From assembly GCF_900155735.1 (NCBI RefSeq), contig NZ_LT707054.1:96041-131756 (forward strand): a stretch of 35,716 bases of DNA, written 5' to 3'. The notes below the pieces were generated by a model. It was given only the letters and a program-made list of their open reading frames with translations, was not told the DNA's origin and searched no databases. Positions 14,164-16,568 of this stretch are shown one piece after another (position 1 is the first letter of the stretch; each line of letters begins with the position of its first letter). This DNA comes from Intestinibacillus massiliensis (GTDB taxonomy: Bacteria > Bacillota > Clostridia > Oscillospirales > Butyricicoccaceae). A program made the translations under genes and the position numbers.

Positions 14164-15174
14164 TCAGTCGTCAAACGGGTTCCAGCTCTTGGGGATAAAG
14201 AGCTTTTTATACATCATGATCGAGTACCGGTCGGTCATGCACGCGATGTAGTCGCACACCACGCGCGCGCGGCTGTCCCGGTCCATCAGCTGCCGGTAAT
14301 CCTCCGGCAGCTCGTCGATATGCCCGTAAAAATACCCATACAGCGCGCGCAGCATATCCATCGCCCGTGCCTCCTCGGCCTGCGCCTTGGTGCCCTTGTA
14401 GATGCTCTGGAAATTGAAGCGCCGCAGCGCCAGCATGGCCTCGTGGATTTCTGCGTCCATGCCGATGCCGCCGGTGCGCTCGCCGTATGTAATCATATTG
14501 CTGACCAGCGTATCGATGCGCTGGCCGTGCGTGTCCCCGAGCGTCGCGCGCAGTTCTCCGGGGATATCCGCCTGCCGGATCAGCCCGGCGCGCAGCGCGT
14601 CGTCGATATCGTGGTTGATGTACGCGATGCGGTCGGCAAAGTGGATGATCTGCCCTTCCAGCGTCTGTGCCTTTTTGCCGCCGGTGTGGCAGACGATGCC
14701 GTCGCGCACCTCCCAGGTCAGGTTCAGCCCCCGGCCATCGTGCTCGATGCGCTCCACCACGCGCAGGCTCTGCTCGTTGTGCCGGAAGCCCTCCTCGCAC
14801 ACGTCATTGAGCGCGGCCTCGCCCGCGTGGCCGAAGGGCGTATGCCCCAGGTCGTGCCCGAGCGCGATCGCCTCGGTCAGGTCCTCGTTAAGGCACAGCG
14901 CGCGGGCGACGGTGCGGGCGATCTGCGCGACCTCCAGCGTATGCGTCAGCCGGGCGCGGTAATGGTCGCCCTCGGGCGAAATGAAGACCTGCGTCTTGTT
15001 GGACAGCCGCCGGAACGCCTTGGAGTGGATGATGCGGTCGCGGTCGCGCTGGTAGCAGGTGCGCATGGGGCAGGGGGCGATTTCCCGCTCGCGCCCGCGC
15101 GTATGCGCGGCCAGTGCGGCGCCCTTGCCCAAAACCTGCGCTTCCCGCGCCTCCAGCCGTTCCCTTACCGTCAT
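14164..15174 (-). CDS. dgt: dGTPase-like HD-domain deoxynucleotide triphosphohydrolase
   Basis: A 336-residue HD-domain phosphohydrolase. It has the family block KAFRRLSNKTQVF, His78 in LTHTLEV, and the HD pair His107-Asp108 in GHDLGHTPFGHAGE that binds the metals. This group hydrolyses dGTP or other dNTPs to the nucleoside and triphosphate and helps balance nucleotide pools. I start it at the ATG 15174, preceded by AGGAAGG at 10 nt; an upstream TTG would add ten residues. It is the first gene of the operon with dnaG and rpoD, a frequent arrangement in Clostridia. Confidence 0.92.
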   Translation of the reverse strand: MTVRERLEAREAQVLGKGAALAAHTRGREREIAPCPMRTCYQRDRDRIIHSKAFRRLSNKTQVFISPEGDHYRARLTHTLEVAQIARTVARALCLNEDLTEAIALGHDLGHTPFGHAGEAALNDVCEEGFRHNEQSLRVVERIEHDGRGLNLTWEVRDGIVCHTGGKKAQTLEGQIIHFADRIAYINHDIDDALRAGLIRQADIPGELRATLGDTHGQRIDTLVSNMITYGERTGGIGMDAEIHEAMLALRRFNFQSIYKGTKAQAEEARAMDMLRALYGYFYGHIDELPEDYRQLMDRDSRARVVCDYIACMTDRYSIMMYKKLFIPKSWNPFDD

Positions 15175-15218
15175 AGCCGCCCTGCCTTCCTGCGTCCGCC
15201 ACAAACCGTTCTACATGT

Positions 15219-15224
15219 ATAATA
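15219..15224 (-). promoter_or_regulatory. Extended -10 of the dgt-dnaG-rpoD operon
   Basis: On the minus strand TATTAT is preceded by TGG, an extended -10. No good -35 is visible. It lies 45 nt upstream of the dgt start. Confidence 0.35.
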
Positions 15225-15323
15225 CCAAGCGGGTTTGTCTTTCCCTCTTTTTTTTCGTAAATTATTTTTTAAATATTATCCCGGGCGCGCCCTGCGTGCA
15301 ATCCGCAAGTTTTCGCGCCCCTC

Positions 15324-15352
15324 TTGCAATCTTTCCCAAAGTATGCTATGAT
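15324..15352 (+). promoter_or_regulatory. Plus-strand promoter without an evident gene
   Basis: TTGCAA (15324-15329) and TATGAT (15347-15352) are 17 nt apart. Transcription would begin near 15359 and run antisense through the sRNA toward the terminator at 15713-15756. Confidence 0.45.
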
Positions 15353-15360
15353 TACTCATG

Positions 15361-15461
15361 GAAAACAAAAATGCGGCAGCCTCCCGGGTGTGACAGCACC
15401 CGGGAAGCCTATGCAGGTGAGCACGCACCTACACAACGGCCATTCACAGGCCGTACCGCGG
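15361..15461 (-). ncRNA. Putative ~100-nt cloverleaf sRNA
   Basis: The minus-strand transcript would start at about 15460, set by the promoter at 15467-15495. It folds into a four-way junction. P1 is 15455-15459 with 15373-15377 (GCGGU/GCCGC). P2 is ACGGCC (15449-15454) with GGCCGU (15436-15441). P3 is AGGUG (15426-15430) with CACCU (15415-15419). P4 is a 13-bp stem of 15397-15409 with 15378-15390 around a CUGUCA loop. P4 abuts P1, and P1 is followed at once by a U-rich tract (15362-15372), as in an intrinsic terminator. I see no match to 6S, SRP, tmRNA, RNase P or common riboswitches. Whether it acts in trans or as a leader of the dgt operon 187 nt further on is unknown. Confidence 0.6.
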
Positions 15462-15466
15462 ATTAC

Positions 15467-15495
15467 AGTATACCACATTTCCCCCTTTTTTACAA
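15467..15495 (-). promoter_or_regulatory. Promoter of the putative sRNA
   Basis: On the minus strand TTGTAA (15490-15495) and TATACT (15467-15472) have a 17-nt spacer and a TGG extended -10. The predicted start coincides with the first stem of the RNA. Confidence 0.65.
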
Positions 15496-15712
15496 CCCCG
15501 GGCCAGCCACCGCCTCCGGTTTATTTACATTTTTGTACATAAACCCTGGCCCGGCGTCCCATCGCGGCAAAAAGGCAGCCCCCTTTTGCCGCCCTGTTTT
15601 GCGTTCTGGTTGTGGCGCGTCCCCTCCTCGGGATTTGAACTGTATGGGGGTTTGTGGCGCTGTTCCCCGCGCCCGCGTTTCTGACGATATGCGGCTTTTG
15701 CCGCCCCGCCGG

Positions 15713-15756
15713 ACGCTGTGTAGGACTTCAACATCCTGCGCAGCGTTTTTTGTTTT
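15713..15756 (+). terminator. Orphan plus-strand intrinsic terminator
   Basis: CGCTGTGTAGGA pairs with TCCTGCGCAGCG (12 bp with two G-T pairs) around an 8-nt loop and is followed by TTTTTTGTTTT. No plus-strand gene precedes it. Confidence 0.65.
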
Positions 15757-15890
15757 CCCGCGCACGGCGGGAGGGGTTTTGTCCTTTTTTTTATCCCCTC
15801 CCTGTCCGCGGCGTGCGGAAAACCGGCGGGGCGGCGTGGTGCGCCGCCATCCGGCACGTCCCCCGGCCGGGCGGGGGGCCACAGAAAACT

Positions 15891-15924
15891 AACACGGACA
15901 GCGTGATGCTGTCCGTGTTTTTTT
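15891..15924. terminator. Terminator downstream of yigZ
   Basis: AACACGGACAGC and GCTGTCCGTGTT form a 12-bp stem with loop GTGAT. Eight T follow on the plus strand; on the minus strand, the yigZ side, AGTTTTC follows. Confidence 0.75.
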
Positions 15925-15932
15925 GCGCCTGT

Positions 15933-16568
15933 TTACTTGACCCGCCTGCCCATGAACCTGCTTTCCATCACCTCTGCGTACACCGTGCCCGCGGTCGCGT
16001 CCGCCAGCGCCCGGTTGAGCGCCGCCGCGCCCCCGGCAGGGATGGTGCAGGTCAGCGTCACATCCGCGCCGAAGTCCGTGTCCTCGGCCGCGCAGTCGAA
16101 ACCGGGCAGCATATGCAGCACGGTTTCGTATAGGTGGTAGGGGCAGGCCACCAGCAGCACGTCGTACAGGCTCATGCGCTGCACGCCCGCCGCCGCGACG
16201 GCGATTTTCGCGCCTTCGGTATAGGCGCGCACCAGCCCGCCCGTGCCGAGCAGGATGCCGCCGAAATAGCGCGTCACCACGCAGCACACATCCACCAGCC
16301 CCTCGTGCCGCAGCACCTCGAGGATGGGCAGCCCGGCGGTGCCCTGCGGCTCGCCGTCATCCGAATACCGCATCATATTGCCCTCGCGCAGGATATATGC
16401 CCAGCAATTGTGCGCCGCGTCCCAATAGGTTTCGCGCATTTCGCGTATTTTGGCGGTCGCTTCCTCCGGCGTTTCCACATGCCACAGACGCCCGGTGAAT
16501 TTAGAGCGTTTTTCCTCAAACCTGTCCTCGCCGTAGGGTTCGGCGGGAATGAAATAGTCCTTTTCCAA
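15933..16568 (-). CDS. yigZ: YigZ/IMPACT family protein
   Basis: A 211-residue protein of the YigZ/IMPACT family (UPF0029). The family signatures are visible: RSKFTGRLWHVETPEEA near the start, AAHNCWAYIL, YSDDGEPQGTAGLPILEVL, and VTRYFGGILLGTGGLVRAYTEG. The bacterial proteins are cytosolic, and their molecular role is poorly defined; the eukaryotic relative IMPACT affects translational control. It starts with TTG, supported by AGGTGA 5-6 nt upstream, and begins 19 nt after hflX, so the two are probably co-transcribed. Confidence 0.92.
   Translation of the reverse strand: MEKDYFIPAEPYGEDRFEEKRSKFTGRLWHVETPEEATAKIREMRETYWDAAHNCWAYILREGNMMRYSDDGEPQGTAGLPILEVLRHEGLVDVCCVVTRYFGGILLGTGGLVRAYTEGAKIAVAAAGVQRMSLYDVLLVACPYHLYETVLHMLPGFDCAAEDTDFGADVTLTCTIPAGGAAALNRALADATAGTVYAEVMESRFMGRRVK

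Follow-up and report, generated by a model that had tools for sequence, protein, structure and literature searches.

A dispersed family of cloverleaf antisense RNAs in Bacillota with a proposed role in transcription attenuation of varied accessory genes

The stretch of Intestinibacillus massiliensis DNA analysed here (35,716 nucleotides of contig NZ_LT707054.1; hereafter the window) contains a compact minus-strand element that an initial annotation, made from the sequence alone, described as an unassigned small RNA of about 100 nt. This raises the question of what the RNA belongs to, and whether it stands alone. The predicted transcript folded into a cloverleaf of four stems (Table 1) with a minimum free energy (MFE) of -57.9 kcal/mol, against -35.5 +/- 3.4 kcal/mol in 200 dinucleotide-preserving shuffles (z -6.6), none of which folded as low (0/200). 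The lengths first proposed for P1, P2 and P4 (5, 6 and 13 bp) agreed with the MFE fold, as did the abutment of P4 on P1 and the U-rich tract following at once (AUUUUUGUUUU, directly after the cloverleaf on the minus strand); P3, proposed as 5 bp, was 10 bp long. The promoter read by eye is present, with a TG preceding its -10 element, and the start expected at about 15460 falls one base ahead of the 5' arm of P1. A scan of positions 15100-16100 found 2 promoter-like sites, where shuffled sequence led to an expectation of 0.3.

Table 1. Coordinates of the features at the window locus (position 1 is the first letter of the window).
Feature	Position	Strand	Basis
Cloverleaf antisense RNA, about 100 nt (predicted transcript)	15361..15460	minus	fold z, pair coordinates, covariation, family members
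P1, 5 bp	15459-15455/15377-15373	minus	MFE fold
P2, 6 bp	15454-15449/15441-15436	minus	MFE fold
P3, 10 bp	15435-15426/15419-15410	minus	MFE fold
P4, 13 bp, abuts P1	15409-15397/15390-15378	minus	MFE fold
RNA promoter: TTGTAA (15495-15490), 17 nt, TATACT (15472-15467), extended -10	15467..15495	minus	sequence and promoter scan
Convergent promoter into the RNA: TTGCAA, 17 nt, TATGAT, extended -10	15324..15352	plus	sequence and scan
Predicted leader transcript, ending at the attenuator if that terminates	15359..15758	plus	inferred from promoter and hairpin positions
Attenuator: terminator hairpin 15712-15745, then UUUUUUGUUUUCC	15712..15758	plus	scan, pattern match
Gene place of other modules; no credible gene here	15759..15932	plus	only short or overlapping ORFs before the UPF0029 gene
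HD/HD_assoc gene	14164-15204	minus	flanks the window copy
UPF0029 (yigZ-like) gene	15933-16568	minus	flanks the window copy

The initial impression that the RNA matched no familiar class was borne out by Rfam searches. Rfam 15 gave 0 matches in the whole window, a search of 15200-15950 at E up to 10 returned nothing over the RNA, and 20 related loci searched at E up to 1 gave 5 matches, none of which overlapped the RNA. A tRNA or tmRNA identity of the cloverleaf was rejected, since neither ARAGORN nor Rfam had such a match in the window. At one related locus (L025, 1221-1390, minus strand) a cyano_tmRNA match below threshold (30.3 bits; gathering 70) lay about 110 nt past the RNA copy. In the available parts of two RNA-discovery papers (PMC11109978, PMC2864571) nothing on a cloverleaf family of this kind was found, and a literature search of titles and abstract openings, with most subscription papers and all bioRxiv preprints outside its coverage, returned no description of the family. 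Judged by sequence comparison, the cloverleaf RNA is a new family that is not in the Rfam catalogue.

Copies of the RNA were found well beyond the window. A DNA search of 60 relatives gave matches in 6 genomes including its own, each from another genus. When 394 sampled genomes of the order were searched with a covariance model built from four sequences (R1), 49 proved to carry the RNA, in up to seven copies each. A wider model (R2), used for class and phylum, gave 18 carriers among 391 sampled genomes of the class, of which 14 lie outside the order, and 9 among 398 of a phylum sample at E up to 1e-4, of which 8 lie in other classes; over the three samples together, a carrier genome held up to eight copies. 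Removing identical bodies and two weak or minus-strand hits (L063:2032, L044 minus) left 132 distinct copies. A pattern that described P3 and nothing else returned 96 stretches from named genomes. The 80 loci listed among these came, by their titles, mostly from Oscillospiraceae or other Clostridia (Flavonifractor, Oscillibacter, Agathobaculum, Pseudoflavonifractor, Evtepia and others), and all 80, fetched on P3 alone, matched the whole cloverleaf model. No match was found among 72,556 plasmid records; one phage record (MT836507, a distant match confirmed by the model) and one locus among viral contigs matched at E below 1e-17.

Several copies occur in repeated arrangements. A 6 kb contig (L062, 3591-5589) has four diverged copies in tandem and in one orientation inside 2 kb, the weakest scoring 21 bits, and tandem pairs occur at L056 and L069. 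In genome G025 three copies (L007, L008 and L009), two of them near contig starts, lie inside a larger repeat of about 500 bp that is 88-94% identical, which suggests duplication of whole regions. A MITE reading was set aside, the inverted flanks being read as promoters at set spacing with a gene usually behind; P4 as a recombination site was also rejected, its arms lacking conservation.

Covariation supported the fold. Across the 80 P3-pattern loci and the window, a set in which most of P3 is fixed by the pattern itself, 98.9% of cells pair and 349 cells are changed on both sides (shuffle mean 102). In the model-found set 97.1% of cells pair, with both-sided changes in 29 of 32 pairs, including 9 of 10 in P3. 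In these alignments, both of which were fitted to the model, base-pair covariation exceeded every shuffle and every register slide, which, with the 80 of 80 loci matching the whole model, places the cloverleaf beyond chance. G-U is the commonest pair at 5 of the 32 pairs, and its complement would give A-C mismatches; this argues that the minus-strand RNA is the selected fold.

The initial description of a small RNA therefore stands in so far as it is structured and covarying, has its own promoter and terminator and matches nothing in Rfam. Its description as a stand-alone RNA is incomplete, because the opposite strand has its own promoter and a P3-repeating hairpin, both outside the interval first annotated (15361-15495), and the RNA is most likely the antisense partner of a convergent transcript. 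The predicted leader from that promoter holds the full complement of the RNA. The hairpin at 15712-15745, 258 nt past the RNA start, repeats both P3 arms (UGUGUAGG and CCUGCGCA). In the whole 2.84 Mb genome, the P3 pattern had two matches, the P3 of the RNA and the attenuator; a backward control pattern had one.

The same arrangement recurred across the family. Among 124 copies (8 of the 132 were left out for short flanks), a sigma70-like promoter lay upstream of the RNA in 99%, a second promoter faced back into the RNA from downstream in 94%, and both were present in 115; the second promoter was 11-14 nt from the model end in 97 of the 124. With the promoter weight matrix used, which was not fitted to these copies, the same score was reached in 16-45% of controls (shuffled, other strand, farther away). 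Across loci, a transcript from the second promoter would contain the complement of the whole RNA and, past the RNA start, a hairpin terminator in which the P3 arms and the UUUUUGUUUU tail occur again. A scan blind to P3 counted any hairpin carrying a T-run as a terminator. In the stretch 40-190 nt past the RNA start, 86 of 121 copies had one on the leader strand (at a median of 90 nt) and 35 had none; as controls, the opposite strand gave 3 of 121 and the stretch at 900-1050 nt gave 9 of 111. An earlier count of P3-like hairpins had also given 86 hits, three of them at least 500 nt away and probably due to chance, and the blind scan is the cleaner count. Another 29 copies, after one weak hit and two short rows had been left out, came for the most part from beyond the order (the exceptions being L252, which belongs to it, and the viral L254 and L255); 17 of them had a terminator and 12 had none, with 3 on the other strand. 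The hairpins of L253, L257, L266 and L275 are unlike P3 and may be ordinary terminators.

Attenuators resemble the P3 of their own RNA more than that of others. The longest string shared between the attenuator 5' arm and its own P3 was 6.13, against 5.66 when permuted (2/5000; 63 non-redundant copies), a small difference because most arms are alike. In the further 17 copies with a terminator, mostly outside the order, the match was repeated (5.88 against 5.04, 0/5000). In a separate comparison the U-tracts of RNA and attenuator agreed at 10.45 of 14 positions within a copy and 9.40 with others (0/5000); all these permutation tests are inflated by the shared ancestry of related copies. The match was clearest where the arm had drifted (10 nt shared in L086, 9 in L092 and 7 in L078), and no clear own-arm match was seen in copies of L051, L098 and L062 (3-4 nt shared). 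These comparisons suggest that the attenuator is a copy of one RNA helix, P3, together with the RNA's tail.

The genes behind the attenuator are varied. Gene calls were made with simple scripts and loose rules, one ORF being reported for each of 92 loci, some of them surely wrong. A protein scan of 84 of 88 candidates (L048, L190, L175 and L183 were left out, and ORFs under 55 aa, including that of the window, excluded) found, as the commonest families, Cu_amine_oxidN1 (11), phage integrase (10), TraX (5), SLH (5) and NPCBM (5), followed by DUF4230 (4), the IS605 OrfB helix-turn-helix (3) and serine recombinases (2); 25 of the 54 families among the matches were listed. One PemK/MazF-like protein lies behind an attenuator. 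Most modules carry larger proteins, such as integrases, TraX and SLH proteins, in place of the small hydrophobic toxin ORF of type I toxin-antitoxin systems. A plasmid copy-number role would call for a rep gene or primer; there was no rep family among the 25 of 54 families listed and no plasmid match. No gene cluster was common to most copies, the largest comprising 10 loci in mixed positions, and a free sRNA or a mobile repeat was first suggested by this lack of a conserved neighbour. At L040 three related genomes have the RNA, leader and gene, and a fourth (G065) lacks all three, the interval measuring 1.18 kb with the module and 0.11 kb in G065; this joint absence counts in favour of the attenuation reading given below. 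In the unannotated gut phage of record MT836507 (L255, 5650-6150) a complete module was seen by eye, with convergent promoters, RNA, attenuator and a small ORF with a ribosome site behind.

These data bear on whether the RNA acts in trans. A stand-alone sRNA family, whose variable loops would pair with unrelated mRNAs and for which promoter and hairpin of the other strand would be incidental, would agree with the RNA having a promoter and terminator of its own, with the lack of a neighbour gene common to most copies and with the window copy, which has no gene behind its attenuator. We consider it unlikely, as most copies have both a convergent promoter and a P3-like terminator, each at its set distance, and the hairpin tracks the drift of P3 in its own RNA.

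The best explanation, to which we assign a probability of roughly three in four, is that the RNA, encoded in cis, acts as an antisense regulator of transcription attenuation on the opposite strand. The parts of such a system, namely both promoters, the RNA fold with its covariation, the repeated terminator and the varied genes behind, were established by comparing copies. From these we infer transcription, contact between loops, binding and a repressive sign of control. The convergent promoter would make a leader carrying the exact complement of the RNA, followed by the terminator hairpin that repeats P3 and the U-tract. When the RNA is absent, the complement of P3 (anti-P3) in the growing leader would pair with the 5' arm of the attenuator as an antiterminator, allowing read-through and leaving the gene on. 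When it is present, binding to the leader would probably begin at the variable P3 and P4 loops; with anti-P3 occupied, the attenuator would fold, transcription would stop and the gene would be off.

Computed leader structures were consistent with this switch. In a nascent leader cut just past the attenuator 5' arm, the arm was predicted to pair with the anti-RNA region at P>0.5 in 78 of 91 loci, mainly with anti-P3, and a shuffled arm did so in 6 of 91; for the window this probability was 0.71. In the full leader (n=91) the extended terminator stem had a mean probability of 0.36 when free, compared with 0.68 when the anti-RNA region was blocked and 0.64 when that region was shuffled (paired Wilcoxon P below 1e-12). 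Blocking took only 39 of the 91 loci from below to above 0.5, hardly changed the terminator probability at L040-L043 and raised it from 0.118 to 0.271 in the window, which has an unusually long leader. In the full leader at equilibrium the hairpin core prevails (computed probability 0.80), so the switch would have to be kinetic; kinetic control is usual in attenuation. Also weighing against the attenuation reading are the copies in which the blind scan found no terminator (35 of 121, and 12 of the further 29) and the window copy, with no gene to control.

Antisense control could also proceed by promoter collision, or by a duplex that blocks or destabilises the message, the hairpin being an ordinary terminator. 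Collision is likely between promoters that face each other about 170 bp apart, icsA/RnaG shows such interference besides attenuation (PMC5394118, as far as its available parts go), and the 35 of 121 copies without a terminator point the same way. Such control would nevertheless leave unexplained both the repetition of P3 and tail in the terminator and the pairing of the nascent arm with anti-P3, and we regard it as improbable. The same parts could work with the opposite sign, RNA binding favouring read-through; the sign of control rests on prediction, but the rise in computed terminator probability from 0.36 to 0.68 (n=91) upon blocking makes this a distinctly poorer candidate. Least probable is a type I toxin-antitoxin system with the RNA as antitoxin. 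In its favour are the position of a convergent antisense RNA beside an mRNA, the shortness of some ORFs behind attenuators and the one PemK/MazF-like protein; against it, the families found among the 84 proteins scanned were for the most part those of integrases, TraX and secreted or surface proteins rather than of small toxins.

Antisense-controlled attenuation is, to our knowledge, known from few plasmid and virulence genes, and pIP501 RNAIII and pCF10 Anti-Q are of the same kind as the pT181 attenuator. By analogy with the available parts of the source papers, the proposed mechanism would be of the pT181 and icsA/RnaG kind. As in those systems, an antisense RNA lies against the leader of its target, each with a predicted promoter of its own (115 of 124 copies), and an intrinsic terminator lies between the antisense region and the gene (86 of 121 copies, and the window at 15712-15758). 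For icsA/RnaG of the Shigella virulence plasmid, the parts of PMC5394118 available describe antisense RNA and target arising from convergent promoters 120 nt apart, and a kissing contact that drives the nascent message into a Rho-independent terminator rather than an antiterminator fold. The cloverleaf system is predicted to share the convergent promoters, the kissing contact and the message driven to a terminator; for an antiterminator alternative removed by the RNA, the computed folds give a paired nascent arm in 78 of 91 loci and a crossing of 0.5 upon blocking in 39 of 91. Unlike that single case, a 450-nt RNA inside a coding gene, the cloverleaf RNA is a dispersed family of about 100 nt whose attenuator repeats one RNA helix and its tail. 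In pT181, according to the accessible text of PMC3753616, hairpins of antisense RNA and leader kiss, transcription is attenuated and specificity can be changed in the first hairpin; the likeness in antisense RNA, kissing hairpins and attenuation is again predicted for the cloverleaf. Whereas pT181 concerns one plasmid rep gene, the cloverleaf occurs at many chromosomal loci beside unrelated genes and had no match in the plasmid records. The nearest chromosomal family found, from partial views of the sources, is DonS of Bacteroides: DonS-type RNAs (PMC7366714, PMC10994844) form a 78-128 nt cis-antisense family beside accessory genes of gut bacteria with a negative effect, as predicted here. They differ in phylum, in being confined to susC homologs of PULs, in their divergent arrangement and in having no repeated attenuator in the parts of the papers seen; the cloverleaf has varied genes beside it. 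What appears new is thus the conserved 100-nt cloverleaf, the attenuator that copies helix and tail, the wide spread and the variety of genes.

The loops that would begin recognition vary strongly. Between copies with near-equal stems, the P3 loop differed by 56%, against 5% in the P1-P3 stems, within the same genome (16 pairs), and by 67% against 8% between genomes (208 pairs). Since the between-genome difference is also high, loops change fast everywhere; an excess of loop variation among paralogs was unsupported, between-genome pairs differing more than same-genome pairs. Loop change would suit copies for which cross-reaction has to be avoided. The P4 loop could be parsed in 100 of 132 copies and had six bases in 84, in 47 of them after the loop was widened past a weak closing pair. 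Four reverse-complementary pairs (UUGGCG/CGCCAA, UUGCAG/CUGCAA, UUGCCG/CGGCAA and GUCGGA/UCCGAC) account for 58 of the six-base loops, and letter-shuffled loops gave at most two such pairs (0/2000 reached four). L082 and L088, which have common neighbours, carry CGCCAA and UUGGCG, respectively; it looks as if the P4 palindrome had been inverted between copies. UUGGCG is the commonest P4 loop (21 of the 100 parsed; its complement CGCCAA, 7), and is also the recognition loop of some plasmid antisense RNAs, which act on translation of rep genes. This likeness is a lead of 6 nt only, and the cloverleaf is proposed to act in transcription attenuation instead; a literature search for the UUGGCG recognition loop of plasmid antisense RNAs did not find it.

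A broader picture, tentative and in our estimate slightly short of even odds, is that of a portable silencing cartridge spread across Bacillota, in which convergent promoters, a cloverleaf RNA and a helix-copying attenuator precede unrelated accessory genes (recombinases, transfer, IS605 and surface genes). Its loops would change from copy to copy, in part through an inverted P4 palindrome, letting copies co-exist without cross-talk like plasmid incompatibility groups. If true, a single conserved layout would exist in dozens of natural versions across a widespread family that is chromosomal for the most part, and this would suggest how common gut Clostridia keep their mobile and surface genes quiet. 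It would also provide a searchable signature for silenced accessory genes and a set of natural RNA switches, maybe orthogonal, and would make the diversification of antisense recognition loops testable.

The window copy has the promoters, RNA, leader and attenuator, with a longer spacer than usual, and there is no credible gene between the attenuator and the UPF0029 gene; it is therefore probably an orphan or decayed module. Neither R1 nor R2 found a second copy in its genome. The flanking HD/HD_assoc and UPF0029 genes, which we take to be dgt and yigZ, are separated by about 190 bp in a sister species (G001), compared with 730 bp here. A module ancestral to dgt was rejected, no copy being found at 18 of 18 dgt loci in other genomes of the host's taxonomic family, searched to about 1.5 kb on either flank; a single hit of 8 bits near dgt in L117 (E 4.1) was taken as chance. 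Inside the long leader spacer, 15615-15660 on the minus strand reads GTTCAAATCC... followed by ACCA, by eye like a tRNA T-arm and 3' end; ARAGORN found no tRNA in the window, and the stretch is perhaps an integration remnant. A hairpin with T-runs on both sides at 15891-15919 probably serves as a terminator both for the UPF0029 gene and for any transcript arriving from the left.
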